This document shows positions 9,855 through 22,402 of a stretch of 32,460 bases of DNA, one piece after another; position 1 is the first letter of the stretch; each line of letters opens with the position of its first letter. A program made the translations under genes and the position numbers. The stretch spans positions 1 to 32,460 of the forward strand of contig JAFRXI010000034.1 in assembly GCA_017437755.1 (NCBI GenBank), in the 5' to 3' direction. This DNA comes from Bacteroidales bacterium. GTDB lineage: Bacteria; Bacteroidota; Bacteroidia; Bacteroidales; UBA932. Below the pieces are notes generated by a model. The model searched no databases, was not told the origin of the DNA, and saw nothing but the letters and a program-made list of their open reading frames with translations.

Positions 9855-10721
9855 TTACCCGAAGATGACCGTACGGTTCTTGTAGGTCAGGATCTTCCGC
9901 TCGATGTGCCGGGTTACGGCACGGCTGAGGACGATCTTTTCCAGGTCGCGTCCCTTAAGCATCAGGCTCTCAGGGGTGTCCTTGTGGGTAATCCGTACAA
10001 CATCCTGTTCGATAATGGGGCCGGCGTCCAGTTCCCGGGTAACGTAATGGCTGGTGGCACCGATAATCTTGACTCCCCGCTCATAAGCCTGGTGATAGGG
10101 CCGTGCCCCGACGAATGCGGGCAGGAAAGAGTGGTGGATGTTGATGATGTGGTGCGGATAGCGTGCAATCATCCCATCGCTTATAACCTGCATGTACCTA
10201 GCGAGCACAATAAACGTAACGCGCTCGCGCTCAAGCAGTTCCATTTCCTCCCGTTCCACCTCTTCGCGATTGGACTTGTCCGGCGCGATGCTCCATACAT
10301 AGAACGGTATGCCAAACTGCTCCGCCACTTCCCGGAGGTCCTCATGGTTGCTCACGATGCAGGGGATGTCCACCTCCCACTCTCCGGCATAGTAGCGGGC
10401 CAGAAGATCGTAGAGGCAGTGGCTCATCCGGCTCACGAAAATAGCCATCCGCGGCTTTTCTTCACTGAAAGACACGCTTGAGTACATATCATAACGGTCG
10501 GAGAATGCGGCGTCCACCTCCTGTTTGATACGCTCCCTCGGTATGGAGAAACCGTCCAGCTCCCATTCTATCCGCATGAAGAGCCGCTTATCAAGGGTGT
10601 CCACATATTGGTCGAGATAAACTATATTGCCCCCGTTCCGGGTGATGAACCCCGTCACTTCCGTGATGATGCCCTGGCGGTCAGGACAGTGAAGGAGGAT
10701 GATGGCCTTGCCTGTTGACAT
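9855..10721 (-). CDS. purU: Formyltetrahydrofolate deformylase
   Basis: This 288-aa protein has an N-terminal ACT domain (residues 5-85, HCPDRQGIITEVTGFI) and a formyltransferase-like hydrolase domain. The catalytic Asn-His-Asp set is visible as N194 and H196 in INIHHSFLPAF and D232 in RELDAGPIIEQD. PurU hydrolyses 10-formyl-THF to formate and THF, which balances one-carbon pools and can supply formate to PurT. The frame is open to 10784, but a perfect -7 box at 10744-10751 lies inside that extension, and the ATG at 10721 gives the normal PurU N-terminus and length. It converges on the SusD gene. Confidence 0.94.
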   Translation of the reverse strand: MSTGKAIILLHCPDRQGIITEVTGFITRNGGNIVYLDQYVDTLDKRLFMRIEWELDGFSIPRERIKQEVDAAFSDRYDMYSSVSFSEEKPRMAIFVSRMSHCLYDLLARYYAGEWEVDIPCIVSNHEDLREVAEQFGIPFYVWSIAPDKSNREEVEREEMELLERERVTFIVLARYMQVISDGMIARYPHHIINIHHSFLPAFVGARPYHQAYERGVKIIGATSHYVTRELDAGPIIEQDVVRITHKDTPESLMLKGRDLEKIVLSRAVTRHIERKILTYKNRTVIFG

Positions 10722-11518: not shown

Positions 11519-11526
11519 TATATTTG
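11519..11526 (+). promoter_or_regulatory. -7 promoter box for the 175-aa protein / RT cluster
   Basis: TATATTTG matches exactly, 38 bases before the ATG at 11565. The upstream TTTG at 11501-11504 is closer than usual, so the -33 element is uncertain. No terminator is seen between here and the reverse transcriptase gene, so the transcript may include the RNA segment and the RT. Confidence 0.5.
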
Positions 11527-11564: not shown

Positions 11565-12092
11565 ATGGGTATCCTGAAATCTCTACTCAACCTTGCCGTA
11601 AAGACTGCGGAGACTGCCATCAGGCAGCAGCAGAATCAACAGCGGCCCCAGCAGAACCACAATCCGGCACCTGCGAACAGCACGCCTTCATACGCCGCCT
11701 CATCTGCCGCCCAGGCTGCTCCCGCTGACTGGAATGCCTATTTCGCCGAGATCCTCAGCAGTGCTTTCCCTCAGTTCGGCGTACGCAGGAACGTTCCCGT
11801 CACCGACCTTGCAGGTTATGCCACAGACAATTTCCAGCTCTACTCAACCCGGCCCATGCAAGCTTACAAGGCCGAATGGGGTGCGCCCTATACCTTCGTC
11901 CTCGAGCGTAGCGGAGTGCCTGCCGGAATAGTCATGCTGGGCTCCGGCCATAGCCACGACAGCAATGTCAAGTATCTGATTGCCAGGATGTATGCAAAGA
12001 AACTCGGACTTCCATACATCAACTTCTACACCCAGATGCCCAACGAGCGGCAGTACGTCATCGGGCGTATCCGCAAGTTCATGGGCGAATAA
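11565..12092 (+). CDS. Conserved-looking hypothetical protein, 175 aa, upstream of the RT
   Basis: The N-terminus (MGILKSLLNLAVKTAETAI) is an amphipathic helix, followed by a Gln/Pro/Ala-rich low-complexity linker (residues 21-55) and a compact C-terminal domain of about 120 residues. That domain ends in YLIARMYAKKLGLPYINFY, then a helix. The strand-helix-strand order after FVLERSGVPAGIVML recalls restriction-endonuclease-like (PD-(D/E)XK) folds, but the usual acidic and lysine residues are not evident; this is an impression, not a match. There is no signal peptide. It lies 152 bases upstream of the RT start on the same strand, with the possible structured RNA between them. The function is unknown. 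Confidence 0.72.
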   Translation: MGILKSLLNLAVKTAETAIRQQQNQQRPQQNHNPAPANSTPSYAASSAAQAAPADWNAYFAEILSSAFPQFGVRRNVPVTDLAGYATDNFQLYSTRPMQAYKAEWGAPYTFVLERSGVPAGIVMLGSGHSHDSNVKYLIARMYAKKLGLPYINFYTQMPNERQYVIGRIRKFMGE

Positions 12093-12095
12093 AAC

Positions 12096-12235
12096 AGAAG
12101 GCAGAAGGGGATGCGCCTCAAGCGCGCCTGCGAAGGATGCAGCGCCGCCCTACTATGGTTTTGCAGGCAACCGGGCTCCGTACCATCCCGTGAACAGCAA
12201 TTTTGCTGATTCAAACCCCCTCCCCTTCTCCTTCT
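12096..12235 (+). ncRNA. Candidate structured RNA upstream of the reverse transcriptase
   Basis: AGAAGG (12096-12101) pairs with CCTTCT (12230-12235) and AGAAGGGG (12103-12110) with CCCCTTCT (12222-12229), a 14-bp closing stem with a single bulged C at 12102; A12111-T12221 can extend it. Inside are hairpins 12112-12126 (stem TGCGC/GCGCG), 12128-12142 (CTGC/GCAG), 12172-12190 (CGGG/CCCG) and 12195-12208 (CAGCA/TGCTG). GCCTGC (12126-12131) can alternatively pair with GCAGGC (12163-12168). The layout resembles the a1/a2-flanked RNA of retrons and the upstream RNAs of some defence RTs. The arms are purine- and pyrimidine-rich, so chance pairing is possible. It could instead be a leader controlling RT translation. 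Confidence 0.42.
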
Positions 12236-12244
12236 TTCCAAAGT

Positions 12245-13471
12245 ATGTCAAGCATACTCCAAGAACTTTCCGGGCAGCAAGCATGGGAAGAGTTCCTTGC
12301 CTACAGGCTTAAGAAGGGCCGCTTCAACTGGCATGGGTTTGAAGAGGCTGATTCCTACGTAGCTTCAAAGGCATTTGCCGCCATCGCCGGGAAGCTGCTT
12401 GCCGGAGAGAGCCCAGGAATCCCCGAAAAGCACCTTGTGAACAAGATGGGGACCGGTCGCAAGCGGGTGGTTTACAGTTACCCGCCCGAGAGCCAGCGTG
12501 CACTCAAACTCATCGCCCATCTCCTCTATAAGTACGACCATACCCTTCCCCGGAACTGCTATTCGTTCCGCCGCGGGCTCACTGCGCAAAAGGCCGTGCT
12601 GAGGCTCATCCGACAGGTTGGAGACTCCCCCTTCTGGGCATACAAGCTTGACATCCACGACTACTTCAACTCCATTTCCGTTCCCCTGCTGCTGCCGGTC
12701 CTGAAGGAGACCCTGTCGGACGACGAGACTCTCTACGGTTTCTTCAGGGAAATGCTCTCCGACGACCGCGCCCTGTTCGACGGCGCCATCATCAGGGAGT
12801 CCAAGGGGGTGATGGCGGGAACCCCTACGGCCCCGTTTCTTGCCGACCTCTACCTGTCCGAGGTCGACCGCCATTTTGCCGCCGCAGGAGAGCCTTACGC
12901 ACGATACTCCGACGACATGATCCTCTTTGCACGCACCTGTGAAGAGTTGCAAGGCCATATCGAAACGCTTAAAGACTTCCTCGCCAAGTACCGCCTCCAG
13001 CCCAATCCGTCCAAGGAAAGGATATACTTCCCCGGCGAGCCCTTCGACTTCCTGGGCTTCAAGTGCCTGGGGCGCAGGATCGACATCGCGGATTCCTCAA
13101 AACGCAAGATGAAAGACCGGATAAGGCGAAGGGCACGCGCGCTTAACAGGTGGCGGAGCATCAATGGAATAGAGCCCGCCAGGGCCATGAAGGCCCTCAT
13201 CAACAGTTTCAACCGGAAGTTCTTCGAGGGAGACGACCCGCATGACCTCACATGGTCCAGATGGTTCTTCCCCATTATCAACAGCACCGGGGGGCTGAAG
13301 GAAATCGACCGGTGCCTGCAACGGAACCTGCGATACCTTGCAACGGGCAGGCACAACAAGGCCAACTACCGTGTAAGGTACAAAGACCTGAAGGCCCTTG
13401 GATACAAGAGCCTGGTTCATGAATATTACATTTACATGAGCAGAAAAACACTAAATTTGCAGTTGCCATGA
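12245..13471 (+). CDS. Stand-alone reverse transcriptase, unassigned clade
   Basis: This 408-aa protein has RT motifs in order: YSFRRGLTAQKAV (106-118), motif A YKLDIHDYFNSI with D136, motif B GVMAGTPTAPFLAD (188-201), motif C YARYSDDMILFA with Asp223 and Asp224, and motif E-like FDFLGFKCLG (267-276). A basic thumb-like region follows (KRKMKDRIRRRARAL) and a C-terminal block GYKSLVHEYY. Catalytic aspartates are intact. There is no intron-maturase X/HNH domain, no NAxxH or VTG retron signature and no partner typical of diversity-generating elements. The open frame extends to a TTG at 12203, but that would run through the pyrimidine tract of the RNA stem, so the ATG at 12245 is chosen. No Shine-Dalgarno is present. 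It overlaps the next gene by four bases. GC and codon use match the neighbours. Confidence 0.93.
   Translation: MSSILQELSGQQAWEEFLAYRLKKGRFNWHGFEEADSYVASKAFAAIAGKLLAGESPGIPEKHLVNKMGTGRKRVVYSYPPESQRALKLIAHLLYKYDHTLPRNCYSFRRGLTAQKAVLRLIRQVGDSPFWAYKLDIHDYFNSISVPLLLPVLKETLSDDETLYGFFREMLSDDRALFDGAIIRESKGVMAGTPTAPFLADLYLSEVDRHFAAAGEPYARYSDDMILFARTCEELQGHIETLKDFLAKYRLQPNPSKERIYFPGEPFDFLGFKCLGRRIDIADSSKRKMKDRIRRRARALNRWRSINGIEPARAMKALINSFNRKFFEGDDPHDLTWSRWFFPIINSTGGLKEIDRCLQRNLRYLATGRHNKANYRVRYKDLKALGYKSLVHEYYIYMSRKTLNLQLP
13452..13459 (+). promoter_or_regulatory. Possible internal -7 box at the end of the RT gene
   Basis: TAAATTTG is a perfect TAnnTTTG within the last RT codons, nine bases before the ATG at 13468. 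It would give the lipoprotein its own nearly leaderless transcript; chance occurrence is possible. Confidence 0.3.
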
Positions 13472-13986
13472 AACGTATTTTAACCTTAGCATTTGCCATT
13501 GCGGCCATTGCAGCCGCCGTATCATGCGGGCAGTCAGCCGGCAACGCCCCGGCGGTCGTCCCGTCAGAGTATCAGAGTTCAAATCCGGAAAATATGCAAC
13601 AAGTAAGGGATTTCCTGCATAAGGCGGGAGTATACTACCTTGCCACCGTGGACGGGGACCAACCCCAGGTCCGCCCCTTTGGCACGGCGGAAATCATAGA
13701 AGGCAAGCTATACATCCAGACTGGGCACGTAAAGAAAGTGGCAAAGCAGATTGCGGCCAACCCCAAGGTGGCCATCTGTGCCTTTGACGGATCGGAGTGG
13801 CTGAGGATCACCGCAACCCTCGTGGAAGATTCCCGGGTAGAGGTCAAGAAGGCCATGCTCGATGCCAATCCCGGGCTCAGGTCTATGTATGACGAGAACG
13901 ACGACAATACCGCCGTATACTTCCTGAAAGACGCAAAGGCCACTATCAGCGCCTTCACCCACGAGCCGGTAGAGATTGATTTCTGA
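13468..13986 (+). CDS. Exported pyridoxamine-5'-phosphate-oxidase-like flavin-binding lipoprotein
   Basis: This 172-aa protein has signal MKRILTLAFAIAAIAAAVSC and Cys20 in a lipobox. The mature domain reads MQQVRDFLHKAGVYYLATVDGDQPQVRPFGTA..., the split-barrel fold of the PNPOx-like family that binds FMN or F420-type cofactors, with IQTGHVKKVAKQIAANPKVAIC in the core. These proteins are usually cytoplasmic, so export on a lipid anchor is notable. The start overlaps the RT stop by four bases (ATGA), suggesting coupling to the RT, although a -7-like box just upstream could give independent expression. The substrate and any link to the RT are unknown. Confidence 0.85.
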   Translation: MKRILTLAFAIAAIAAAVSCGQSAGNAPAVVPSEYQSSNPENMQQVRDFLHKAGVYYLATVDGDQPQVRPFGTAEIIEGKLYIQTGHVKKVAKQIAANPKVAICAFDGSEWLRITATLVEDSRVEVKKAMLDANPGLRSMYDENDDNTAVYFLKDAKATISAFTHEPVEIDF

Positions 13987-19324: not shown

Positions 19325-20126
19325 CAGGCCGGACCTGAAAAGCCGGATAGACGCCGTGGCCGAGGTCGCCGGTTACCTCTGGAGCAAGGGCTGGGCGGAA
19401 CGCAACGGCGGTAACATAACCGTCAACATAACTGAATGCGTGGATGCCCGGATGGAGGCTCTCACATCACTTATGCCGCCCCTTCCCATAGGCAGGGTGC
19501 TTCCCCACCTGAAGGGATGCTGGTTCTACTGCAAGGGTACAGGGAAGCGGATGCGCGACCTCGCCAGGTACCCGATGCAGAACGGATCCATAATCCGGAT
19601 CGCTCCGGACTGTGCATCCTACGAGATAGTGGCCGACCTTCCGGTTCTCCCCACATCTGAACTACCGTCTCATCTCAGCGTGCATAACTATCTGACAGGT
19701 AAAGGCTTGCCGTACAAGGCCTCCCTCCATACGCATCCGATAGAACTGGTGGCCCTCACCCATGACAGGAAATGGATGGAGAAGGATGCCGCCACCAGGA
19801 TGCTGTGGTCGATGATTCCGGAGACCAGGGCATTCTGCCCGCGCGGGCTGGGAATGGTACCTTACATGCTTCCTTCCAGCCAGGAACTGGCCCAGGCCAC
19901 CCTGGAGGAACTCTCCCGTGGGTACGACGTGGTAATGTGGGAGAAGCACGGCGTCTTTGCCGTGGACACCGACATCATGAACGCCTTTGACCAGGTGGAC
20001 GTACTCAACAAATCAGCCCAGATCTACATAGCCGCCAGGAACATGGGGTTCGAGCCGGAAGGGATGACCGACTGCCAGATGGATGAACTGGCGCGGGTAT
20101 TCAACCTGCCTCGTCAGAAGGCGTAA
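19305..20126 (+). CDS. rhaD: Rhamnulose-1-phosphate aldolase
   Basis: This 273-aa class II aldolase has RNGGNITVNIT (near 31), the phosphate-binding KGTGKRMRD (near 77), zinc histidines in SLHTHPIEL (His142/144 region) and a third in WEKHGVFAV (near 213). It cleaves rhamnulose-1-phosphate to DHAP and L-lactaldehyde. The first 20 bases lie within rhaB. Its last 13 bases overlap the 3' end of the convergent TonB-dependent receptor gene, so no space remains for a terminator. No rhamnose permease or AraC-type regulator is present next to the trio. Confidence 0.96.
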   Translation: MNSILDSRPDLKSRIDAVAEVAGYLWSKGWAERNGGNITVNITECVDARMEALTSLMPPLPIGRVLPHLKGCWFYCKGTGKRMRDLARYPMQNGSIIRIAPDCASYEIVADLPVLPTSELPSHLSVHNYLTGKGLPYKASLHTHPIELVALTHDRKWMEKDAATRMLWSMIPETRAFCPRGLGMVPYMLPSSQELAQATLEELSRGYDVVMWEKHGVFAVDTDIMNAFDQVDVLNKSAQIYIAARNMGFEPEGMTDCQMDELARVFNLPRQKA

Positions 20127-22402
20127 TACACCTTGAACATAAAGTTGAACGGGGCCTGCGGATATACATAGACCCCGGAGACAACCTCTCCGGTTTCCTT
20201 CACAAAGTTCTTCCAGGCGCCGCCGTCGGCATAATACAGCTTGTTGAAAATGTTGTACAGGTAGGCCGAGAGGCCGATTTTCCCGCCCTTGACCTTGAAT
20301 TCATGGGACGCAGTAAAGTCTGCCGTAAACCGTCCCGGAGCCATTCGGGAATCGTCGCCGGTATTGTCAAGATACTGTTTTCCCACCCACTTGCCGGATA
20401 TGGTGAAAGCGGTGGTCCCGAGCGACGAAGTCCGGCCGGCCCACGGCCTGAAGCTAAGGCCGGCCATCCCTATCGTGGAAGGTGAAAGCAGTATGGGGGT
20501 ATTCTTGAAACTCTTGTACACCACCGAATAACCCAGTTCGTTCCATCCGTTCTCACCGGTATTGTCTATTACCGGGGCGGAGTCATCATACACGGGTATT
20601 CTGTTGATACTCAATGTCATATTCCCCATTACCGAAAGCCATGCGGCAGGATGCCATCCTGCCTCAAGTTCCACTCCCCTGCGATATGCCCTGGAAACGT
20701 TGTCCTTGACCGGGAAGCCGCTGGATGAAAGCCTTCCGGTTTCCAGCAGCATGTTCCGGTATTCCATCATATATATGTTGGCCGAGACGGAGAACTTCTT
20801 GGAATAGTAGCCGTAGCCGGCCTCCACGTCCAGCATCGACTCCGGCTTCAACTCGCTGTTCTCACCTCCGAAAGAGATGCTTTCCAGCACTTCCTTGATG
20901 TCACTCTTGCCAGGTTCCCGGTTTCCCCAGGCCACTGACAGATAGGCCCTGTGCCCGCGTCCCCAGGCGGCGGTGAGTCCGCCCCTCGGATTGAAGAAAT
21001 CCCATGGCTTTCCGTAATCCAGTCTGGCCGCGATGTCGCTTACGCCGGAAACCACGTATCCCACATGGCGGTACTGGAGGTCCGCATAGCCGGTGAGCCA
21101 TGGCAGGATAAGCGCCTCGGCACGGACGAACACGTTCATATCCAGTTTGTTACCACCATAGAAATACCACTGGTTGTCCTTGTCATTCGGGAATCTGGGG
21201 GAATAATCGAAGCTGTCGCCGAGGACATCCGACCAAAGGACCTTGCCAAAGTGGCGGCCCATGTAGTATCCTCCATACACACCCCCGGTAACGTCCAGCC
21301 TGCGCCCATGGTACCTGAGGTCGCTGCTGAGCACCCAGTAGTCGTTGGACATCTGCTTCCGTATTATGAAATCACCGCTGGCAGTCTCTGACACGGAAGG
21401 GTCAAACCCGTAGGCGGTGAATTTCTTATCGCTCTTGTAATACTCGTCATAACCGTCTCCCCTCGTGTAATTGACGGTGGTGGTCCAGCTGAGGCGTGGC
21501 GAGAAGGCCCTGGAATAGTTCAGCTGAACATGGTGCTGGGCGTAGTTGTCGGTCTCGCCGGGATAGTACCGGTGATTGCCGTACTTGTCCTTGTACTCCC
21601 CTGCACTGTTGTAACGGCGGTCCTTGGCATAATCGTCAAGACCAATTCCATTCCAGGTTATCCCGGTCTTCTGCTTGCCCATCAAATAGGTGAGCCTCAG
21701 GGAATTGCGTCCGCTCAGCCAGCCCAGGACCGCAAAGGCGCTCCCCACGTTGGCATCCGCCCGGCGGATATATCCGTCGGTCCGGCCCCTGGAAACCGCG
21801 GCACTGGCATAGAATCCGCCCTTCAACAGTCCGGTGGAAGCCGAAACGGTGGTGATGGCGGTACCGTAGCTTCCGGCCGATGCCTCGAACCTGCCGGAGG
21901 GATCGGCCTCCACGAATGCGGTATTCATGTTGATGCTGGCGCCGAACGCCCCCGAACCGTTGGCCGACGTTCCAAGCCCCCTCTGCACCTGGACGCTGGA
22001 AAGGATCGATGTCAGCGCGGGGATGTTCACCCAGAAAACCTCCTGGCTTTCAGAATCGTTGAGGGTTATGCCATTGAGGGTTACGTTGATCTGGGAGCCC
22101 TTTACTCCACGTATGGTGAGCTTGGAGTTGCCAAGCCCCGTACCGCCCTCGTTGGAGGAAACCACCGACGGCATAAGCCCCAGCGTCATGGGGACCGACG
22201 ACGAAAGGTCGGCCCTGCGGAGCCGGCCCTTGTCCATGGTTGAATAAGTGACAGGGGTATAAAAGCCCGCCCTGGTGGATGAAACCACAATGCTGTCAAG
22301 GCGTTCATTGCTATCCGTCGAAGCCTCCTGGGCCATGACGTGGACAGCGGGCAGCATGGCTGCCATCAGGAAACAAAAAAACCGCATAACTATAAACTGC
22401 AT
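20114..22402 (-). CDS. TonB-dependent outer-membrane receptor under a TPP riboswitch, probable thiamine importer
   Basis: This 762-aa protein has a signal peptide (hydrophobic to VMAQ, about residue 25), a TonB-box-like LDSIVVSST, a plug domain (about 50-165, with SKLTIRGVKGSQINVTLNG) and a 22-strand-type barrel to a terminal phenylalanine (MFKVYYAF). There is no CarboxypepD-like N-terminal extension and no SusD partner, so it is a vitamin- or siderophore-type receptor rather than a glycan SusC. A TPP riboswitch directly upstream indicates thiamine or a precursor as cargo, as in the thiamine-regulated receptors known from Bacteroidota. The ATG at 22402 or the in-frame ATG at 22387 could be the start; both keep the signal peptide. 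No thiamine kinase or PnuT gene follows. Confidence 0.93.
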   Translation of the reverse strand: MQFIVMRFFCFLMAAMLPAVHVMAQEASTDSNERLDSIVVSSTRAGFYTPVTYSTMDKGRLRRADLSSSVPMTLGLMPSVVSSNEGGTGLGNSKLTIRGVKGSQINVTLNGITLNDSESQEVFWVNIPALTSILSSVQVQRGLGTSANGSGAFGASINMNTAFVEADPSGRFEASAGSYGTAITTVSASTGLLKGGFYASAAVSRGRTDGYIRRADANVGSAFAVLGWLSGRNSLRLTYLMGKQKTGITWNGIGLDDYAKDRRYNSAGEYKDKYGNHRYYPGETDNYAQHHVQLNYSRAFSPRLSWTTTVNYTRGDGYDEYYKSDKKFTAYGFDPSVSETASGDFIIRKQMSNDYWVLSSDLRYHGRRLDVTGGVYGGYYMGRHFGKVLWSDVLGDSFDYSPRFPNDKDNQWYFYGGNKLDMNVFVRAEALILPWLTGYADLQYRHVGYVVSGVSDIAARLDYGKPWDFFNPRGGLTAAWGRGHRAYLSVAWGNREPGKSDIKEVLESISFGGENSELKPESMLDVEAGYGYYSKKFSVSANIYMMEYRNMLLETGRLSSSGFPVKDNVSRAYRRGVELEAGWHPAAWLSVMGNMTLSINRIPVYDDSAPVIDNTGENGWNELGYSVVYKSFKNTPILLSPSTIGMAGLSFRPWAGRTSSLGTTAFTISGKWVGKQYLDNTGDDSRMAPGRFTADFTASHEFKVKGGKIGLSAYLYNIFNKLYYADGGAWKNFVKETGEVVSGVYVYPQAPFNFMFKVYYAF

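Follow-up and report, generated by a model that had tools for sequence, protein, structure and literature searches.

The analysed window, a stretch of 32,460 nucleotides, carries a reverse transcriptase (RT) gene of the UG26 group that is directly preceded by a compact, pseudoknotted RNA and, before that, by the gene of a small companion protein. Taken as a whole, these three parts are read here as a UG26 retro-system, an RNA-dependent RT of the "Class 2" UG type that would make repetitive cDNA, and we give this reading a probability of about 0.6. As in Class 2 UG/DRT systems, a conserved structured RNA is encoded beside the RT.

The RT gene extends on the forward strand from the ATG at 12245 to the stop at 13471 and encodes 408 aa, as originally predicted. 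The protein matches the PADLOC model RT_UG26 (PDLC03764) over its full length (residues 3-398, 495.8 bits, E 1.8e-149), 395 bits ahead of the runner-up PADLOC model (100.5 bits); judged by these profile scores, it is a UG26 RT and hence not an unclassified one. The catalytic core, D136 and YSDD (Y221-S-D-D), had rightly been called intact and is invariant in all 93 aligned UG26 RTs, the window's included. Two C-terminal residues were looked at as candidates for a priming hydroxyl of the DRT10 kind. Y379 is kept in 92 of the 93, the exception (L073) stopping before that position. Residue 389 is serine in 87 and proline in five, the proline marking a distant clade, so that serine at this position is not general to UG26 RTs. 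The AlphaFold model has a mean pLDDT of 91.0, and the folds of the RT and of the companion were read solely from predicted secondary structure. In locus L073 (6001-7008) the RT frame ends early, at 336 aa, by a truncation that may be real or an assembly error; the RNA is present there. At E 0.001, the Pfam RT profile matches nothing else in the source genome (2,877,287 bases in 76 contigs, 84.87% complete).

Below UG26 and the generic RT model, PADLOC ranks UG27, UG4, UG17 (DRT10), Cas1_IIIb, Drt9 and Drt3a. According to the consulted portions of the sources, UG17 is DRT10, and DRT9, DRT10 and DRT3a copy an RNA partner (PMC12632851, PMC13174585, PMC12483538, PMC13213688). As UG17/DRT10, Drt9 and Drt3a are among the top scores, UG26 lies near RNA-using groups by PADLOC score; against solved structures, however, the RT profile scores highest with group II and CRISPR-linked RTs.

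The whole structured RNA occupies 12096-12235 of the forward strand, as delimited by RNAfold, alignments and the RNA model R1 (match at 12100-12232, 126.1 bits), and comprises a closing stem, P1, a pseudoknot, P2/P3 and P4. The inverted repeat that had been noticed here is real, with 15 pairs rather than the 14 counted before: supported by fold and covariation, a 5' arm at 12096-12111, in which C12102 is bulged, pairs with a 3' arm at 12221-12235, whose end lies 9 nt before the RT start codon. The inner 102 nt (12122-12223) match the Rfam family RF03026, RT-5 RNA, with 82.1 bits, above the gathering score of 45.7; the structure line of that match contains neither the closing stem nor the pseudoknot, whereas the window RNA has both. 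RNAfold gives -58.8 kcal/mol for 12093-12244; 200 shuffles average -43.16 (sd 3.74), and not one is as stable (z -4.18). The closing stem is present in this single-sequence fold, but P2 gives way to pairing between the pseudoknot arms. The RNA lies between two genes; two mechanically called ORFs, 11980-12312 (+) and 12026-12241 (-), overlap it, as does the RT frame when extended to a TTG at 12203.

Is the structure conserved? Homologous UG26 loci were drawn from GTDB genomes, the best 80 of 190 being used; judged by title, these are largely assemblies of Bacteroidales from the ruminant gut. Of these best 80 loci, 77 carry the complete RNA (76 recognized by pattern, L065 by hand), and the other three (L030, L033, L052) are cut by contig ends, with the remaining part of the RNA present. 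The check proposed with the original prediction, for a conserved covarying stem upstream of RT homologues, thus finds a stem that is kept by compensatory change. From 78 close RNAs, ten were omitted from alignment A3, nine apparently near-identical by look and L076 for an expanded loop; because MAFFT shifted the 3' tail in 10 of the 68 rows of A3, the main structure count was made on alignment A4, which contains 58 RNAs including the window's. On A4, a seven-helix structure has 97.1% of its cells paired, compared with 86.3% after shuffling and 43.8-53.0% when slid, and 27 of its 47 pairs show double-sided changes. RNAalifold, without being told the structure, recovers the six nested helices with small differences. 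In a set of 21 RNAs including divergent ones, the closing stem is paired in 95.5% of cells, with changes on both sides in 11 of 12 pairs, a count favored by the fitting of that alignment to this stem. The stem changes sequence yet stays paired across the 58 RNAs and in UG26 groups whose RTs are 31-40% identical to the window's; in L155, for example, it reads AAACAAAGAGAAAA/TTTTCTCTTTGTTT (arms found by eye and checked by script).

The pseudoknot joins GCCTGC (12126-12131, +) to GCAGGC in the P3 loop (12163-12168, +), both arms being assigned by covariation. Among the 58 close RNAs, 99.7% of its cells are paired and three of six pairs are doubly changed; of 500 shuffles, 46 reach this number of doubly changed pairs, 428 the number of pair types and none the other three measures. 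With the 21 RNAs that include divergent ones, all 126 of 126 cells are paired and five of six pairs are changed on both sides, which 4 of 500 shuffles equal; this alignment came from a model without the pseudoknot helix, i.e., it was not fitted to it. Pair types are no more numerous than in shuffles in this set either (357 of 500 reach the observed number). The arms vary in concert, as in GCCCGC/GCGGGC, ACCTGC/GCAGGT, GCCTTC/GAAGGC and GCTTTC/GAAAGC. The pseudoknot is therefore supported, at the level of sequence, by compensatory changes.

The RNA and the UG26 RT travel together. Among 199 genomes of the family, model R1 finds the RNA in seven, and UG26 (E<1e-100) is found in the same seven; in five more, where the RT matches are all weaker (E 1e-31 to 1e-37), the RNA is absent. 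In the order, 11 of 393 genomes have UG26 (E up to 1e-60), and all 11 have the RNA. A whole-genome RNA search of these 393 under strict filters returned six, all among the 11. The other five (L157-L161) have RTs 31-34% identical to the window's: in L159 and L160 the RNA beside the RT was found with R1, and in L157, L158 and L161, which R1 misses even at E 10, model R2 finds it beside the RT at E 2e-11 to 2e-17, these loci lying outside the alignment of R2. In 14 loci with weaker RT matches the best R2 score is only E 0.56. R1 further yields antisense matches on some RNAs (best E 0.0017), and its best match across 27 loci with weak UG26-profile scores, mostly surely of other RT groups, has E 0.042 (L100). 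L162, a second RT that is truncated by its position at a contig edge, offers no sequence before the gene and stands outside the RNA count. In a sample of 395 genomes of the phylum, a UG26-level match occurs in the source genome only. The Rfam model itself matches in 16 of 20 further UG26 loci. Of the five distant UG26 RNAs, it detects at its gathering score only that of L158, and that one barely (48.1 bits), but not those of L157, L159, L160 and L161.

The RT had been described as standing alone, which does not hold: a co-oriented gene at 11565-12092 (+) is part of the unit. It encodes a companion of 175 aa which, from PADLOC and AlphaFold, consists of a low-confidence N-terminal helix, a Q/P-rich linker and a conserved C-terminal alpha/beta domain. 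In the close family, a companion of ~170 aa precedes the RNA in 78 of 78 loci (in another frame in L009 and partly on the contig in L018 and L079), and its end lies 4-36 nt from the RNA in the 77 of 78 loci measured. Apart from ORFs antisense to the companion, every other neighbor is shared by 11 of 81 loci at most. The Bacteroidetes promoter consensus is TAnnTTTG, and a promoter-like -7 element of this type, TATATTTG, lies by motif match upstream of the companion gene (11519-11526, +). Of 74 loci, 50 have the motif in the 100 nt preceding the companion start, as set mechanically (3.7 expected from shuffles), and none has it in the 200 nt before the RNA (1.9 expected). The presence of the motif before the companion and its absence before the RNA suggest that companion, RNA and RT are made as a single transcript with the RNA in the middle.

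The companion itself is hard to place. It has a weak match to the PADLOC model RTasCOG2852 (E 7e-4, residues 1-172 on 1-165 of 167); a Pfam search with the window companion matched no family, and a PDB search gave nothing convincing (best E 0.61). In its AlphaFold model (mean pLDDT 85.2), the linker is followed by a helix, five strands, a helix, a strand and a helix, an order that is compatible with a PD-(D/E)XK-type fold but is not proof of one. Inspected by eye, the two strands where the catalytic D and ExK of COG2852/Vsr-like proteins would lie read PYTFVL and IVMLG, and the residues seem to be missing. Divergent versions of the companion precede the RNA in L154 and L156, and the companion of L163, which starts with a zinc-ribbon-like CxxC motif, matches RTasCOG2852 very weakly (E 0.0094). 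Beside the RNA of the five distant loci (L157-L161) there is no companion, so it is not part of every UG26 unit. A search of the open-access literature with exact terms did not find COG2852 together with reverse transcriptase.

On the other side of the RT, a PNPOx-like gene (13468-13986) begins at the RT stop codon with an ATGA overlap. It was considered as a fourth part of the unit and rejected: around its 12 relatives from 60 other genomes of the genus, the short stretches fetched gave no match to the RT or the companion.

How might these parts work together? One promoter would drive the companion gene, the ~140-nt structured RNA and the RT, and the RNA, closed by its long stem and held together by its pseudoknot, would be processed out of the transcript. 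RT and RNA very probably form an RNP, in which the RNA would serve as scaffold and, most likely, as template; that it templates cDNA is considered probable. The RT would copy a short single-stranded stretch repeatedly, giving repetitive DNA as DRT2, DRT9 and DRT10 do. The likely purpose would be phage defense, for which we put the odds slightly better than even. For the companion, whose fold is perhaps that of a nuclease that has lost its catalytic residues, a role in sensing or protecting the DNA product is proposed with considerable doubt.

Two stretches of the RNA are candidate templates. The best guess is a conserved motif, UUCAAA, at the base of hairpin P4 and ahead of the closing stem (12210-12215, +), which could alternatively be an RT-binding motif; otherwise, the template may be the variable internal loop between P2 and P3 (12150-12156, +; A4 columns 59-72). 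All 78 close RNAs contain UCAAA, and 76 of them the full UUCAAA; near the 3' end, UCAAA is also found in seven of the eight divergent RNAs examined, the exception being the L107/L163 RNA (same genome). Its conservation has a second possible cause, as part of the motif pairs in P4 in the close family. In L076 (5803-5966) the P2-P3 loop is larger by roughly 25 nt, and the variable loop thus tolerates large insertions. An A-B-A' repeat is not enriched over shuffles in 56 distinct variable loops (3-mers in 15, 12.7 expected; 4-mers in none, 2.6 expected) or in 24 distinct linkers (3-mers in eight, 8.7 expected), so that single sequences that look repeat-like by eye are no evidence. It is conceivable, though unlikely, that the unit is a telomerase-like miniature: copying of a short, unchanging template (UUCAAA or the linker next to it) would yield long T-rich or short-repeat ssDNA, which the companion, with its degenerate nuclease fold, would either protect or recognize as an alarm signal. 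If true, this would be a further RNA-templated DRT product besides a de novo gene, homopolymers and variable or dinucleotide repeats.

Among the defense-associated RTs with RNA partners, DRT2 is the group UG2 and DRT9 the group UG28. By analogy, the nearest models for the UG26 unit would be DRT2 and DRT10. In the consulted text of PMC12632851, DRT10 (UG17) consists of an RNA of 137 nt, a small companion (SLATT) and the RT; the UG26 unit is likewise tripartite, but its order is companion-RNA-RT instead of ncRNA, SLATT protein, RT. The DRT10 companion is a SLATT protein, whereas a profile search finds no SLATT in the UG26 companion, and the UG26 RNA is without the A-B-A' enrichment of the DRT10 type. 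The position of UUCAAA, after a stable stem-loop, is the placement that DRT10 requires as far as the excerpted account describes it. The DRT2 RNA is, in the part of its description consulted (PMC12039810), pseudoknotted and encoded next to the RT, as is the UG26 RNA; it measures 280 nt with a template of 120 nt, whereas the UG26 RNA of ~140 nt is too short, which rules out a template of DRT2 size. For DRT9, the consulted passages (PMC12483538, PMC12489045) describe several stem-loops and a conserved single-stranded stretch, which the UG26 RNA also has; the template of DRT9 is a conserved U tract, while the conserved stretch in UG26 is UUCAAA. The PADLOC entry for UG26 lists proteins only, and the RNA partner is added here.

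Could the RNA merely be a leader of the RT message? The RT would then bind the leader of its own mRNA in cis and regulate translation, with no templating, and both the short distance between the RNA 3' end, as cut here, and the start of the RT match (median 10 nt) and the lack of a promoter consensus before the RNA would fit. This is nevertheless improbable. RNA and RT are ~3 kb apart in L153 (1305-5687), with two genes between them (trkA- and trkH-like by eye), a lipoprotein-like gene separates them in L154, and in L077 as much as 113 nt lies between the RNA and the opening of the RT frame. It is the companion that the RNA follows at short range, and it stays beside it in L153 and L154 as well. 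Since genes separate the RNA from the RT in these two loci, the RNA is not merely an RT leader, and a trans-acting RNA is favored. Nine further loci have 74-150 nt between the RNA and the start of the RT match; they were not counted against the leader because in-frame upstream starts may lengthen the RT. In L031, L032, L036 and L058, the interval from the RNA to the start of the RT match contains stretches resembling ACACGGGACAAAAGGTCCCTGA, which may be an in-frame N-terminal extension.

The original prediction had compared the upstream RNA to a retron a1/a2 RNA or to the RNAs of defense-associated RTs. The second comparison stands, a structured RNA preceding a defense-type RT; the first does not. 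As a retron, the RNA would be an msr-msd with the inverted repeat as a1/a2, and the RT would make msDNA, which would suit a long inverted repeat with hairpins inside directly upstream of the RT. The retron-type models, however, score far below UG26: NCBIfam retron_St85 gives 43.6 bits against a cut-off of 235, and the PADLOC models RT_I-B and RT_III-A, which we take to be retron models, give 41.1 and 38 bits against 495.8. Furthermore, what the stem encloses is a compact RNA with a pseudoknot and a match to Rfam RT-5, and the retron was rejected as highly improbable. Descent of the RT from a group II intron, with the RNA as an intron remnant, is barely credible. Group II RTs rank highest among solved structures, together with CRISPR-linked RTs, in a PDB search with the RT profile, and the group II RT/maturase family TIGR04416 is the best NCBIfam match, but at 99.8 bits the latter is below its cut-off of 300, no Rfam intron matches the window at gathering score, and the lead of UG26 over every other PADLOC model is dominant; this candidate was likewise rejected. 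A housekeeping or domesticated RT-RNA pair without a role in defense is also rather unlikely, with evidence on both sides. Those neighbors that could be recognized by eye look like ordinary chromosomal genes, with a yggS-like gene (named by eye) adjoining L158, L159 and L161, and phage and plasmid collections gave no match at E 1e-30. Against this, the distribution is patchy, with UG26 in 7 of the 199 genomes from the family and 11 of the 393 from the order, and there is a weak sign of transfer, in that a same-genus copy (L111 in genome G523) is 55% identical to the window RT and the RT copies of several other genomes are 63-66% identical in their best segment. UG26 is also listed in cold-seep viruses in the consulted part of one paper (PMC10504277).

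A viral origin was considered and rejected, as no relatives were found in IMG/VR or in the phage and plasmid collections, despite that listing in cold-seep viruses. In IMG/VR, the RT alignment and a distant RT as queries found no relative, in scans that reach mainly close relatives, and a 20-base pattern selected 53 contigs, none of which has the RNA (R2, E up to 0.1).

Both UG26, in PADLOC, and RT-5, in Rfam, are already catalogued. A search of the open-access literature with exact terms found no paper linking the two, and the link may stand in the papers that defined each. What appears to be added is the pairing of UG26 with RT-5, a closing stem and a pseudoknot for the RNA, its spread across UG26 to RTs of only about 31% identity, and an operon that includes the companion. 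An unexplained RNA family and an unstudied RT group are hereby given to each other. The defined structure, the candidate templates, the limits of the RNA and the companion are enough for a direct test of the DNA made, and the system would offer a deep comparative case for the origin of RNA-templated repeat synthesis, up to telomerase.

Elsewhere in the window, a TPP riboswitch (RF00059, 22416-22523, minus strand) scores 54.4 bits against a cut-off of 54.3 and lies before a minus-strand gene (20114-22402) that by eye resembles an outer-membrane receptor and is perhaps thiamin-related. The related locus L023 carries a cobalamin riboswitch (10398-10595, +, 101.6 bits).
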